From assembly GCA_002255925.1 (NCBI GenBank), contig NKIH01000003.1, positions 486,277 to 550,276 on the forward strand: a DNA stretch of 64,000 nucleotides, given 5' to 3'. The stretch's first letter is position 1. Each line of letters starts with the position of its first letter. The notes below the pieces were generated by a model that was not told the origin of the DNA, made no database searches, and was given only the letters and a program-made list of their open reading frames with translations. This DNA is from Burkholderiales bacterium PBB6 (GTDB lineage Bacteria > Pseudomonadota > Gammaproteobacteria > Burkholderiales > Burkholderiaceae_C). The position numbers and the translations under genes were made by a program. Positions 13,309 to 64,000 of this stretch are shown piece by piece.

Positions 13309-13393
13309 GTGCAACTCATGCAGATGACAGGTCGGCGAGCGCTCGGGGCTGCCATGCCGGCACGAGAAAGAGACGGCCGGCGAGCCTTCGAGC

Positions 13394-13482
13394 GTGCTTC
13401 CCTGCGCGAGGATTACCTCAATCAGGTTCAAAGGGACTCTCTCAGTCGGCACACCTTGCGGCCTTGCCAACACCCCCAGCGG
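13394..13482 (-). promoter_or_regulatory. TPP (THI-box) riboswitch
   Basis: Read on the minus strand the leader contains, in order, GCTGGGGGTG (13480-13471), CTGAGA (13445-13440), CCCTTTGAACCTGAT (13435-13421) and GCAGGGAAGC (13405-13396). These are the conserved elements of the TPP aptamer. It ends 87 bases before the start codon of the secreted thiamine-binding protein. Control is probably at translation initiation or by termination; no U-tract is visible in the gap. High thiamine pyrophosphate should lower expression. Confidence 0.92.
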
Positions 13483-13581
13483 ATGCCCGCACCAGCCACG
13501 TGAATGGCGCTGGTGCGAGCCCCCTGATTCTAAGGACCGGACAGCCAACGTCAGGCACTTGGCGGTTGAAATTTTCGGGCC

Positions 13582-60640: not shown

Positions 60641-60693
60641 GCTGGGGTTCTGAATGCAGATGAGAGTCTCGCTGGTCAGGCGTAGTGCGCCGC

Positions 60694-60726
60694 TTGGCAG
60701 AGGAATGCTCGAGCGACGATTCAGGC
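60694..60726 (-). other. Possible decayed attC half-site
   Basis: On the minus strand GCCTGAAT-C-GTCGCTCGAG is followed by a GCCA at the same distance as in the intact attC sites at 61994 and 62520 (GCCTAACC-N-GTCGCTCGAG). It begins 28 bases beyond the stop of the gene at 60755. The remaining half of an attC is not recognisable. Confidence 0.25.
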
Positions 60727-60754: not shown

Positions 60755-61039
60755 TCACTCGAAGTCCTTGAGCACGGTCGGGCTCGACGCCTTTATGAGC
60801 TTGCCATTGAATCGAACATGCCAATCGGGATCGAACTCTCGACACGAGTGAATCTGGAATCCGTTAGGCACGTGTTCGATTGTCAGGGGTAGCAGCCCCT
60901 CAGTTGGCCGAGCCAAGAGCTCAACCGAATGCCCCGGACTGAGGATGACCTCTTCGGGAATCATCTCCAGATGCAGACAGAGGTCGGAGCTTGTGTCATT
61001 GGCAATTGCCCAAACGGTCGGGTATGCAGACGGATCCAT
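60755..61039 (-). CDS. Hypothetical protein
   Basis: 94 residues from the ATG at 61039; a GTG at 61051 adds four residues. No signal peptide. Predicted beta-rich: WAIANDTSSDLCLHLEMIPEEVILSPGHSVELLA, LPLTIEHVPNGFQIHS, HVRFNGKLI. I do not recognise it. Orientation, size and composition match the cassette genes to the right. The 61040-61251 stretch upstream holds no convincing gene or attC. Confidence 0.5.
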   Translation of the reverse strand: MDPSAYPTVWAIANDTSSDLCLHLEMIPEEVILSPGHSVELLARPTEGLLPLTIEHVPNGFQIHSCREFDPDWHVRFNGKLIKASSPTVLKDFE

Positions 61040-61251
61040 GTGCAGCCTCACAGTTTGACATGCGGAGTGCCCGGCCGGCGCGGGCCATTGAGCATTCCAG
61101 TGACGGCGTGGTCATGCACGGTGGCTGTGACGACTGACGTTTGACTTGGCGGGCAACGCAGGTTGCTGCAGGGCTCGTGCCGATACATGCTGCGAAAAAT
61201 CAGATTCGGCGCTGAGCGTAGGGCCAGTCGTCCATGCGCAAGCCCCGTACG

Positions 61252-61881
61252 CTACCAAGGCCTGCCTGTTGACGAGTATCGGTCGTCAGACCAGGTCGCA
61301 GCCAGTGTCTGTGCGTACTCGGACGCCGAGAGAGCCTCTTCGTAAGCAGCCCCGGTGGTCGCCAGAAGAAAGTAGCTGGCTTTGGGGTCGATCAGCTTTG
61401 CATTGAAGTACGCCGACGCCAGCGACACCTTCTGCCCGTCGGGCGGGTCACGGTACCAATGGCCGAAGATAATTTCGAGATCACTGAGGCGAACCTTGTT
61501 GGGCTGGAAGATGGCCTCGATCGCGACAACTCGATTGGAATCCGCTCTTCGTTGACCCGGCGCGGCGCGCTCGCTGCGGATCAGGATCTCCGAGACAGCA
61601 CCTTGCTGAATCCGGTAGGCAGCGCCCCAATCAGCCAATTCAGTCCGCCGGGGTCGAGTGGCGTGTTCATCCAGGTGCCTTGTGACCTCGTTGAAGCTTC
61701 TCGTTCTGGCAATGACGACAAGCAGTTCATGCACAAGACCCAGATCGCCCATGGGCGAATGTGACGTGGGCAATCTGTCGGCGCCCTTGGCGACTTCGCC
61801 CTTCGCGGACAGGTTGAGGAGCGACAACACGGCGGCGGGCACGAAGCGCGCCATCACGAGCCGTCGATGGCGATTGGTCAT
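61252..61881 (-). CDS. Integron cassette gene, hypothetical
   Basis: 209 residues from the ATG at 61881, which is 8 bases after the attC at 61890-62000, as expected for a cassette gene. The N-terminus has a short hydrophobic segment (RFVPAAVLSLLNLSA). The C-terminal half, with VVAIEAIFQPNKVRLSDLEIIFGHWYRD and SLASAYFNAKLIDPKASYFLLATTGAAYEEAL, looks like a folded domain. I do not recognise a family. No clear attC follows its 3' end, so it may be the last recognisable cassette. Confidence 0.55.
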   Translation of the reverse strand: MTNRHRRLVMARFVPAAVLSLLNLSAKGEVAKGADRLPTSHSPMGDLGLVHELLVVIARTRSFNEVTRHLDEHATRPRRTELADWGAAYRIQQGAVSEILIRSERAAPGQRRADSNRVVAIEAIFQPNKVRLSDLEIIFGHWYRDPPDGQKVSLASAYFNAKLIDPKASYFLLATTGAAYEEALSASEYAQTLAATWSDDRYSSTGRPW

Positions 61882-61889
61882 TGTTTGAC

Positions 61890-62000
61890 GCCTGACTTTG
61901 AAATGGCGAGGCCGGAACCAGCTGGCCGCGCGAAGCGATGATGAACCGCTGAGCGAAGCGCGGCCAGCTGGCGCAGGTCCACTCGAGCGACTGGTTAGGC
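61890..62000 (-). repeat. Integron attC site C
   Basis: 111 bases. Read on the minus strand it begins GCCTAAC (62000-61994) and ends GTCAGGC (61896-61890), with an internal imperfect stem around CCAGCTGGCCGCGC. It is nearly identical to site B, as expected for sites of one chromosomal integron. It separates the genes ending at 62050 and starting at 61881. Confidence 0.85.
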
Positions 62001-62049
62001 CGCACTCGCGTTGCCGCCGCGTTCGACATGCTTGGCCTAGAAGCGTGGT

Positions 62050-62406
62050 TCATGACGAAGACGGACTTGTGAAATCGACCTTTTGTTGGAGCAGAACGCG
62101 GACCTGCTCATTGGAGGCGCGATCCCAAGCCTCGAGCAAACTGAAACAGTACAGGCGCTCTTTCATAGACATGCCGCTACGACCCACGATGCAGTGGTCT
62201 CGAAATGCCGACCAGAGCGAGTACACGGTCTCATGCTCCCGGGTGCTGGCGATCCAGGTGTTGCCGATGTACCTCTCCACGGATTGACGCAGATCTTCAG
62301 CGGTACTGGAGTTCTCTGGCCACTCTTCGAGCAACTCAATGAGGCCAAGAACCGCCGGGTCTGACGACACCTTGCGGAGAGCGGGCGCCAGTTCGCCGAG
62401 GACCAT
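62050..62406 (-). CDS. Integron cassette gene, hypothetical
   Basis: 118 residues from the ATG at 62406, nine bases after the GTTAGGC end of attC site B; longer in-frame reading would run through the attC. Soluble and helical: LGELAPALRKVSSDPAVLGLIELLEEW, DLRQSVERYIGNTWI, ETVYSLWSAFRDHC, and MKERLYCFSLLEAWDRA. No family recognised. Like many cassette products it has no close functional clue. Confidence 0.6.
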   Translation of the reverse strand: MVLGELAPALRKVSSDPAVLGLIELLEEWPENSSTAEDLRQSVERYIGNTWIASTREHETVYSLWSAFRDHCIVGRSGMSMKERLYCFSLLEAWDRASNEQVRVLLQQKVDFTSPSSS

Positions 62407-62415
62407 CTGCGTGCG

Positions 62416-62526
62416 GCCTAACGTTGAAGCTTTGGGGCCGGAACCAGCTGGCCGCGCGAAGCGAAGATCAGCCGCCGAGCTGAACGCGGCCAGCTGGTGG
62501 AGGTCCACTCGAGCGACAGGTTAGGC
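62416..62526 (-). repeat. Integron attC site B
   Basis: 111 bases. Minus-strand ends are GCCTAAC (62526-62520) and GTTAGGC (62422-62416), exact matches to the RYYYAAC and GTTRRRY core sites. The interior forms the expected long imperfect hairpin (CCAGCTGGCCGCG arms). The stop codon of the upstream cassette gene overlaps the first core site. Confidence 0.92.
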
Positions 62527-62976
62527 GTCGCCATCGCGAGCCTCTCCTAGGTAGCGATCAACGGCTGCGACTTGCTCCTTCGTTAGCGAACAGTACAGCG
62601 AGTTGGCAATGCTGATCTGGCGCGCCGATGCGTACTTGCCCGGTTCAAGGTATTCGATAAGCGCACCACGAAGGTTCTCTTCGAATGCAGTGCGCGGATG
62701 AATCGAACGAACCATGAATGCTGGAAGGTAGTACTCGAACGCTTCGGAAGGCATGCACCCGGTCCATTCGTCTGCGAGTCCGCAAATGCGTTCCATCGCT
62801 CCCGCTTGACTAAGCACTTGCCAAGTAGTCTTTGAGACTGCCAATTGCACTAGCAAATCGAAGCACTCACCAACCGCCGCATGCTCAACCGCTGCGGAGA
62901 CTGAGCGGGTTGGCCCATCTGCCGGGAAGGCAGCCATTGCTACCTCAGAGAACTCTCGAATTGTTGAGTTCGGCAT
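62521..62976 (-). CDS. Integron cassette gene, hypothetical (possibly DUF6714-like)
   Basis: 151 residues. The ATG at 62976 lies 5 bases after attC site A and the TAA stop lies within site B, so the gene fills the cassette exactly. FEYYLPAFMVRSIHP and SLTKEQVAAVDRYLGEA near the C-terminus recall a family of small proteins with a final LT-x-E-Q-x-x-A-V motif (DUF6714), but this is a weak recollection. No signal peptide or membrane segment. Confidence 0.65.
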   Translation of the reverse strand: MPNSTIREFSEVAMAAFPADGPTRSVSAAVEHAAVGECFDLLVQLAVSKTTWQVLSQAGAMERICGLADEWTGCMPSEAFEYYLPAFMVRSIHPRTAFEENLRGALIEYLEPGKYASARQISIANSLYCSLTKEQVAAVDRYLGEARDGDA

Positions 62977-62981
62977 GCGAG

Positions 62982-63099
62982 GCCTGACGCCCAGGTTAAC
63001 AGGCGCCGGACACCGTAAGTGCGGAGGGTACCAACACTGGCCATGAAAATGCCGAAGGCATGGCCAGTGTTGGCGTCCGCGTTGAAGCGCCAGTTAGGC
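62982..63099 (-). repeat. Integron attC site A
   Basis: 118 bases. Minus-strand ends GCCTAAC (63099-63093) and GTCAGGC (62988-62982). The interior contains a 15-base perfect stem, CCAACACTGGCCATG at 63031-63045 pairing with 63059-63073, around a 13-base loop. The sequence differs from sites B and C but the architecture is the same. Confidence 0.88.
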
Positions 63100-63125
63100 G
63101 TAGCAGCGCTGCTGATTGCCTGTTG

Positions 63126-63773
63126 TTATGAAAGTACATATTCCAGCGCCCAGTAGTACTGCCAACAATGAAAGTTCACTTGGCTCGACGAGTTCTCCAC
63201 CATGGCTCGAAGTTCACTTTCGGACGGAAAGTTCTTCAGGATGCTATGGGTTGAACCGTCTTGCAAGCGGCGCAATTGGTATGTGTTGCCTGATTGATCT
63301 GGTTCACTGATCGGTGTGCTGCTACCCACAACAAAACGATTGTCGAGGAAGACAACGCGTGCGCCCGGATTGAGCGTTGCGTGAAGCCCTTGAAGAAAAG
63401 TTGCGATGCTCTGGCGGGGGACGTGAGAGAGCCAAAATCCTGCAAACGCACCCGAGAATTTTTGAGCCCTAATTGGTAAGTCGTAAGCATCGCCAACTGC
63501 GAACTGGACACTGTTTGCAGGTACACGCTCTTTGGCAATGACCAGTGTTTCAGGCGATGCATCTATGGCAACCACCTCACTGGCGACTGGTGCTAGAAAT
63601 TGAGTCCAGTAGCCTGTTCCACAAGCAACTTCAATGATGCTTTGCCCAGCAAACAAAGAAGGCAGCCAATGCTCGATGACTCGCAAGTCCGCTTGACGCT
63701 CGGGCTTAGAGTACACAAGGTCGTATTCAGGCGCTCTTGCCGAGTAGTAGTGATGAATTTCGTCGCTGCTCAT
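63126..63773 (-). CDS. Integron cassette gene: class I SAM-dependent methyltransferase
   Basis: 215 residues from the ATG at 63773, with AAGGA upstream; longer in-frame reading crosses the attC and transposase DNA. Methyltransferase motif I IIEVACGTGYWTQFLA (about 46-61), acidic VVAIDASPETL (motif II), and VGDAYDLPI (motif III) are clear. The N-terminus HHYYSARAPEYDLVYS resembles UbiE/methyltransferase-11 proteins. The acceptor is unknown. First cassette gene visible from the right, between attC sites A and D. Confidence 0.88.
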   Translation of the reverse strand: MSSDEIHHYYSARAPEYDLVYSKPERQADLRVIEHWLPSLFAGQSIIEVACGTGYWTQFLAPVASEVVAIDASPETLVIAKERVPANSVQFAVGDAYDLPIRAQKFSGAFAGFWLSHVPRQSIATFLQGLHATLNPGARVVFLDNRFVVGSSTPISEPDQSGNTYQLRRLQDGSTHSILKNFPSESELRAMVENSSSQVNFHCWQYYWALEYVLS

Positions 63774-63788
63774 GCGTATTCCTTCGGA

Positions 63789-63873
63789 GCCTAACGTGCT
63801 AGCTAAGCGGCCGTAACCGGCTGGCCGCTGGAGGCAACATGGACCACTGCCGGAAGCGGCCAGCCGGTTGCGG
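63789..63873 (-). repeat. Integron attC site D, interrupted
   Basis: At its left end GCCTAAC (plus 63789-63795) gives the minus-strand GTTAGGC core, 15 bases before the methyltransferase ATG. The stem AACCGGCTGGCCGCT (63816-63830) pairs with the AGCGGCCAGCCGGTT around 63855-63869. The expected GTTAGGC on the right is replaced by GTTGCGGGG, just before the IS3-family sequence, so the outer core site has been lost. Confidence 0.75.
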
Positions 63874-63885
63874 GGAACTTGTTTC

Positions 63886-64000
63886 TCAAAAGTGGACACC
63901 CCTAACAGCGGCCTGCTGTCGCTCGAAGGTTGCCGGGGACCGGTAACCAATGGATGAATGCAGGCGCTGCTGGTTGTAGAACTGGATGTAACTCAGCAGC
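63886..64000 (-). mobile_element. IS3-family transposase, C-terminal end (truncated by window edge)
   Basis: The minus-strand frame entering from base 64000 reads SYIQFYNQQRLHSSIGYRSP and ATFERQQAAVRGVHF, then stops at 63888-63886. N-Q-x-R-x-H-x-x-x-G-Y-x-[ST]-P is the characteristic C-terminus of the IS3 OrfB/DDE integrase core. The element's end should be just left of the stop, in GAACTTGTTTCTCAAAAG, next to attC site D. The rest lies outside the window. Confidence 0.88.

Follow-up and report, generated by a model that had tools for sequence, protein, structure and literature searches.

The DNA studied here is a 64,000-nucleotide stretch of the genome of Burkholderiales bacterium PBB6 (hereafter the window), which spans positions 486277-550276 of contig C20 in a 34-contig genome; base 550276 is the last base of both the window and the contig. 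We use C20, C21, C26 and C28 for contigs of this host genome, G-numbers for genomes and L-numbers for loci. At the right end of the window, four minus-strand genes encoding proteins of 215, 151, 118 and 209 amino acids (aa) alternate with integron attC sites, and the contig terminates inside an insertion sequence (IS) of the IS3 family. A preliminary description, based on the letters of the window, had placed the four genes here and read the region as the far end of an integron cassette array of the chromosomal type. The coordinates of the open reading frames (ORFs) confirm the genes, and attC scores, an intI gene and further attC sites in the genome support the array. The IS3-family element at the right edge had been overlooked. 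We consider it quite probable that the window ends in a distal integron array that was cut within an attC site by a likely attC-targeting IS3 element, with the array probably running on to intI.

The attC sites, all on the minus strand, were scored with two covariance models. R2 was built from four 111-bp attC sites elsewhere in the host genome (C26:283-284 kb and C20:33 kb), its training set contained no window sequence, and its E-values refer to a scan of the window plus eight other stretches, 193 kb in total. R1 is a second attC model, which was run on the window with default filters. Weak sites were rescanned within 4.5 kb, for R2 with the filters off. R2 recovered the complete 111-bp site at 62416-62526 (110 bits, E 2.3e-30), the 111-bp site at 61890-62000 with the 3' core GTCAGGC (94 bits, E 2.2e-25) and the site at 63789-63873 (40 bits, E 4.6e-9 for 63789-63894). 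The last of these had been listed among the attC sites; only its 3' part is present (fold z -4.7 for 63789-63872), and the 5' part is replaced by the IS end. The remaining site, 118 bp at 62982-63099 with the cores GCCTAAC and GTCAGGC, we accept as attC because of its two cores and its strong palindrome (fold z -5.5) and not because of a model score. Sites with two cores and a palindromic stem, lying between co-oriented genes, were thus recognized by R2 in three of the four cases and by cores and fold in the fourth, and the array reading withstood the covariance scan. The only convincing R1 match in the window was 62416-62526 (E 3.5e-6), with 61940-62000 at E 0.15; in the rest of the window all R1 and R2 matches of the 193-kb scan had E 0.26 or worse. 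Start codons of the 215-, 151-, 118- and 209-aa genes lie 15, 5, 9 and 8 bases past their sites, in agreement with the 5-15 bases described before. Two other details did not hold: the sites at 62416 and 61890, described as nearly identical, share 93 of 111 bases (84%; six 111-bp attC sites compared were 73-89% alike), and cores of the type RYYYAAC/GTTRRRY are not found in every complete site, the 3' core being GTCAGGC at 62982 and 61890.

Toward the interior of the window there are two possible decayed attC sites on the minus strand. One lies 3' of the 209-aa gene at 61132-61229 (R1 11.3 bits, E 0.083 in 4.5 kb) and the other at 60648-60726 (R2 9.3 bits, E 0.24 in 4.5 kb); neither stretch has a fold signal (z -0.1 and -0.2, respectively). 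Between them a 98-aa minus-strand ORF (60755-61051), without a Pfam match, could be an older cassette, and a DUF4124 gene begins 7 bases past the 60648-60726 stretch. Because of these two site-like stretches, the array may extend outward to about 60650.

The cassette products are the usual unknowns. The 215-aa gene (63126-63773, minus strand, ATG at 63773) matches Pfam Methyltransf_25 (E 7.4e-17), and its product is predicted to be an S-adenosylmethionine-dependent methyltransferase. Residues 28-147 also match the PADLOC model mad2, the sole such match among ten cassette proteins; we read this as a domain match and not as a sign of a defence role. The 151-aa gene (62521-62976, minus strand) is an orphan with a sub-threshold likeness to DUF6714 (24.9 bits against a cut-off of 27), and the sole database match of its product is an identical 138-aa piece without source. 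The C26 cassette that adjoins the IS end also encodes a sub-threshold DUF6714 protein. For the 118-aa protein (62050-62406, minus strand), of unknown function, nothing scored above cut-off in Pfam, NCBIfam or PADLOC. The 209-aa protein (61252-61881, minus strand) belongs to a small family of unknown function with nine database relatives and matched nothing in Pfam, NCBIfam or PADLOC; its predicted fold (mean predicted local distance difference test score 70.4) had no PDB match at E <= 0.001. The array itself is a real but ordinary fragment of a chromosomal integron.

The interrupting element is represented in the window by its 3' end at 63874-64000 (minus strand), comprising the end of orfB and the right inverted repeat; the same 130 bases open C21 with 99% identity. 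The host element is assigned to the IS3 family by 28 residues of this end, which match the IS3 transposase of G198 at 82%; the transposases of the G198 and G422 copies score 240.7 and 262.5 bits with the IS3 model NF033516 (cut-off 160). Right IS ends are complete at C20 and C21, and the left (5') ends open C26 and C28 in reverse. The inverted ends read GGAGCTTG and CAAGTTCC. Terminal inverted repeats and 3-4 base target duplications, as in the IS3 family, are present, the duplications in two of the four fits tested.

The position of the element was examined with a 77-base left-end query that contained IS sequence only. This query found seven left ends in the host genome, none in 15 other genomes of the genus, and a further six in 4 of the 398 other genomes sampled from the family; since no more than two candidates were scored for each genome of the family-wide search, the family counts are lower bounds. 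An attC 5' arm precedes twelve of the 13 left ends, all in one orientation and with the core about 26 bases upstream. A strict RYYYAAC core lies 26-29 bases upstream in seven of the 13, while such a core occurs 24-34 bases upstream of 0.6% of random window positions. At the other end of the element, the sequence continues as an attC 3' arm in six of the seven right ends examined, with a strict core in five and with GTTAGAG at C21. These seven are four of 13 right-end search matches together with L138, L140 and L143 from protein searches; the matches in G062, G195, G110:C8, G105, G134, G081, G074, G240 and G080 (21-75 bases, E 2e-5 to 1e-3) were left out. Three further left ends from protein searches stand outside the 13, of which those of G110 (L139) and G422 follow an attC arm and that of G801 does not; G796 was taken as the same genome as G110 and counted once. 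An eighth host left end, C20:272673 (E 6.6e-4), was found only with a longer query that included four attC bases and is likewise not among the 13; its attC arm is present and the IS start is missing. In the aligned ends the attC arms vary between copies and the IS ends are conserved, and we therefore rejected the idea that the element carries the arm along. Most of the insertions examined thus have a fixed place and orientation within attC, in several genera, and their recurrence at the same point makes it likely that the IS seeks out attC sites.

Some features of the left end deserve mention in their own right. Most of 15 aligned left ends, including that of the distant G422, carry an integron-like core, ACCTAAC, about 30 bases into the element, with the variants ACCCAGC in C20_406k and ACCTAAA in C21_2723; by eye, the core could occupy the loop of a leader hairpin in G198, G095, G110 and G422. 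The host genome also holds relics of about 40-60 bp that consist of the left end only (L111 8405, L112 9042, L113 1401 and L020 2723), and L119 and L122 show further ones. The relics follow attC 5' arms, with no attC 3' arm noticed behind them, and no relic of the right end only was seen in the host genome. We rejected the idea that they are IntI products, since the breakpoints vary and do not lie at the core.

Relatives of the transposase are numerous, with 2597 of 4227 candidate proteins matching it at E <= 1e-30; among the 120 of these that were listed, eight come from contigs longer than 10 kb. A 38-row tree (29 of the 120 listed database proteins, four copies with known sites and five outgroups) left the place of G422 unfixed and many inner forks unsure. 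G422 belongs to another family of the order, and its transposase is 53% identical to that of G110. R1 found attC matches at L117, L119, L125, L138, L139 and L140 and none at L118, L120-L122, L124, L127, L134, L141, L143 and L145. In a plasmid collection the G198 transposase had no match at 1e-60, and the G110 transposase matched 56 records, all under 60% identity. Among viral contigs no relative was found with a single transposase protein as query and 53 distant ones with a transposase alignment; 23 of these 53 loci, scanned with R1, contained no attC, which means that no array is nearby and is not a test of insertion sites. By eye, G822 and G283 carry distant IS3 elements.

Removal of the IS restores two empty sites. 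Joining C28 to C21 yields a 72-bp attC with an unbroken stem of 17 pairs and a 3-base duplication, GCG (fold z -8.5), and the G422 locus without its IS yields a whole attC with the duplication TGTT (z -3.8). Since C28 pairs with C21, and the host has two complete left and two complete right ends, we assigned C26 to C20, and we infer that the window array continues into C26 through the IS. The C26|C20 join would unite halves of two attC types, the expected outcome of recombination between two IS copies, or else a contig is missing.

C26 carries a complete intI (C26:2011-3087, plus strand). The encoded integrase scores 471 bits with TIGR02249 and 535 bits with NF011946, and its residues 40-353 align with the solved IntI 2a3v across a region that covers the HTLRH and GH motifs; we take the stretch aligned to 2a3v to include the integron-specific patch. 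Its closest relatives are found in Pelomonas sp. UHG3 (84%), a Burkholderiaceae metagenome-assembled genome (80%) and Roseateles cellulosilyticus (80%). Matches at 70% in clinical and other genera form a block that presumably represents class 1 integrases. The cassettes of C26 lie on the minus strand and run leftward from a putative attI near C26:1830 to the contig start, where the 5' end of the same IS is located. The gene adjoining intI was named, by eye, as an AraC-type regulator. The preliminary description had placed attI and the integrase to the right of the window; the polarity of C26 fits, and that C26 follows the window is deduced from the IS ends only. It had also named the absence of an integrase and of further attC sites from the flanking 100 kb as grounds for refutation; a complete intI and many further attC sites are present in the genome, and intI would lie within 100 kb if C26 follows the window.

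Next to attI, a stretch of about 310 bases that looks non-coding occurs twice on C26 (L016 678-1109 and 1460-1850). On C28 (L110 about 1155-1340) there is a second attI-like region, without intI, in which about 180 bases resemble the C26 attI. Further attC sites were found with R1 and R2 in the first 2.7 kb of C21, at C26:282-285 kb, and on C20 at 32-34 kb, 272.8 kb and 405-407 kb; the C26:282-285 kb cluster encodes DUF6869, DUF6882, DUF4265 and an Imm50-like protein. A broken intI-like remnant, below the family cut-off, lies at C20:360.1-360.5 kb (L019 10041-11027), close to a degenerate attC at C20:358.5 kb (L019 8486-8597; R2 E 7.6e-12). The C20:358-361 kb region is likely an older, dead integron. 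Several arrays of the host genome contain IS ends, and several of its attC clusters are stranded.

From these data the following course of events can be proposed. According to established integron biology, IntI would fold and recombine attC sites and insert cassettes at attI, and older cassettes would end up at the far end of the array with their attC sites decaying. The transposase would insert the IS just after the L'' arm of attC (read by eye as AGNGGAC and the next two or three bases), with the orientation always the same and with a 3-4 base target duplication. Recombination between IS copies in several host arrays would then join attC halves of different origin, as at the window edge. Target choice would lie with the transposase, which we infer with the same reserve as present activity of any of these parts. 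One may go further and regard the broad clade of IS3 (DDE) elements as specialised integron parasites, whose transposase would read attC, perhaps as a hairpin, and for which the ACCTAAC in the left end would be part of the life style. We lean slightly toward this extension.

Several observations weigh against an attC-seeking IS at the end of an array that leads to intI. With R2 the 62982-63099 site was not significant (10.9 bits for 63008-63092, E 0.078 in 4.5 kb), and with R1 this site yielded no more than a 5.6-bit fragment (E 2.2). No body of the IS turned up in the host assembly. The core is degenerate and was judged by eye in five of the 13 left ends, which have it at about the same place, and the left end of G385, a fragment, has no attC arm. 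In G801 neither the left nor the right end lies in attC; moreover, a supported group of 12 rows in the transposase tree unites G801 with the attC-inserted G110, and this exception inside the clade lowered our estimate for the specialised parasite. R1 detected no whole attC near L120, L121, L122, L124 and L134. As regards the restored sites, neither the G198 copy nor the C26|C20 pairing shows a target duplication, and the IS boundary in G422 was chosen where the duplication appears.

How far do these points favor other explanations? An IS without attC specificity might have settled in arrays as tolerant DNA, with its copies spreading along with the arrays. The host indeed has many arrays, and G385 and G801 lie outside attC. 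Chance insertions, however, would be expected mostly in genes and in both orientations, and not with 12 of 13 left ends at about the same attC base in one orientation; the attC insertions also span several genera and one other family, with differing attC arms. We therefore hold this explanation for improbable. More weight has to be given to the possibility that the window array is a separate attC cluster without integrase and not part of the C26 integron, which would agree with the different types of the two attC halves, the lack of a common duplication between C20 and C26 and the other stranded clusters of the host. Against it, the C28|C21 fit with its duplication leaves C26 as the partner of C20, with two complete ends on each side, and the polarity of the C26 cassettes agrees. 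A separate cluster is in our view unlikely, while clearly less remote than an unspecific IS.

The idea that the repeats are ordinary intergenic palindromes, with which their palindromic nature and their location between genes would be compatible, we regard as practically negligible in view of the core sites, the single site per gene, the common polarity, the sequence relatives at other cassette loci and the fact that the genome also contains intI and a putative attI. We thus prefer the interrupted distal array described at the outset. The attC site is the mobile currency of integrons, and an IS3 element inserting there would split cassettes from attI, supply points of homologous recombination in arrays and strand attC clusters. 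If true, the IS3 clade would drive array breakage and the formation of stranded cassette clusters. The mechanics of IS3 transposition are well known, so that the choice of a palindromic or folded site by a DDE transposase is open to a simple assay.

In Xanthomonas, sedentary chromosomal integrons have intI mostly downstream of ilvD (PMC12444791). The host integron resembles them in having intI, attI and attC arrays with mostly unknown genes and arrays broken by IS elements; unlike them, its intI adjoins the AraC-type regulator and the host has a second attI region without intI. IS3 transposases in or beside cassette arrays have been described in Vibrio (PMC1382264, PMC11023631) and in plant microbiomes (PMC11089894), and in the phyllosphere they make up 23% of cassette-associated transposases (PMC11089894). 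In Vibrio, two IS3 copies recombined and rearranged an array, and a Vibrio cholerae copy is reported to have transposed into a cassette gene (PMC1382264, PMC11023631). In the available parts of PMC1382264, PMC11023631 and PMC11089894, no attC targeting is claimed for these elements, and the literature searched (including PMC8352920) yielded, to the extent available, no IS3-family group reported as attC-targeting. An attC-specific IS3 group looks therefore undescribed, while attC targeting as such is known from IS1111-attC elements and group IIC introns.

Like the host element in our reading, the insertion sequences of the IS1111-attC group target attC sites (Tetu and Holmes 2008 and Post and Hall 2009, as cited by PMC11089894 and PMC11187229). 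IS1111/IS110 transposases are DEDD enzymes that rely on a seekRNA for guidance (PMC11187229), whereas the host transposase is of the IS3 family and not of the IS1111/IS110 type, and the element is inserted behind L'', where it makes a duplication of 3-4 bases. Group IIC-attC introns are likewise mobile elements that use attC as target (PMC7923331, PMC8876359), but these are retroelements whose insertion point is R'' on the bottom strand (TTGT/T; PMC7923331), and they are not DDE transposons as the host IS3 element is. The ends and the orfB fragment of the inserted element are IS3-type; a whole-window Rfam scan, in which the element body is not covered, showed only a thiamine pyrophosphate riboswitch (13382-13487, minus strand), and a tRNA scan found no tRNA. 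The closest parallel within the IS3 family are IS1397, ISKpn1 and ISPsy8, which target palindromic repetitive extragenic palindromic (REP) units, a choice that for IS1397 and ISKpn1 is attributed to the transposase (PMC1525189). The host element is like them in family and in its palindromic target, which is attC instead of REP, and if our reading is true, its clade would represent a third, unrelated solution to targeting attC besides the IS1111-attC group and the group IIC introns.

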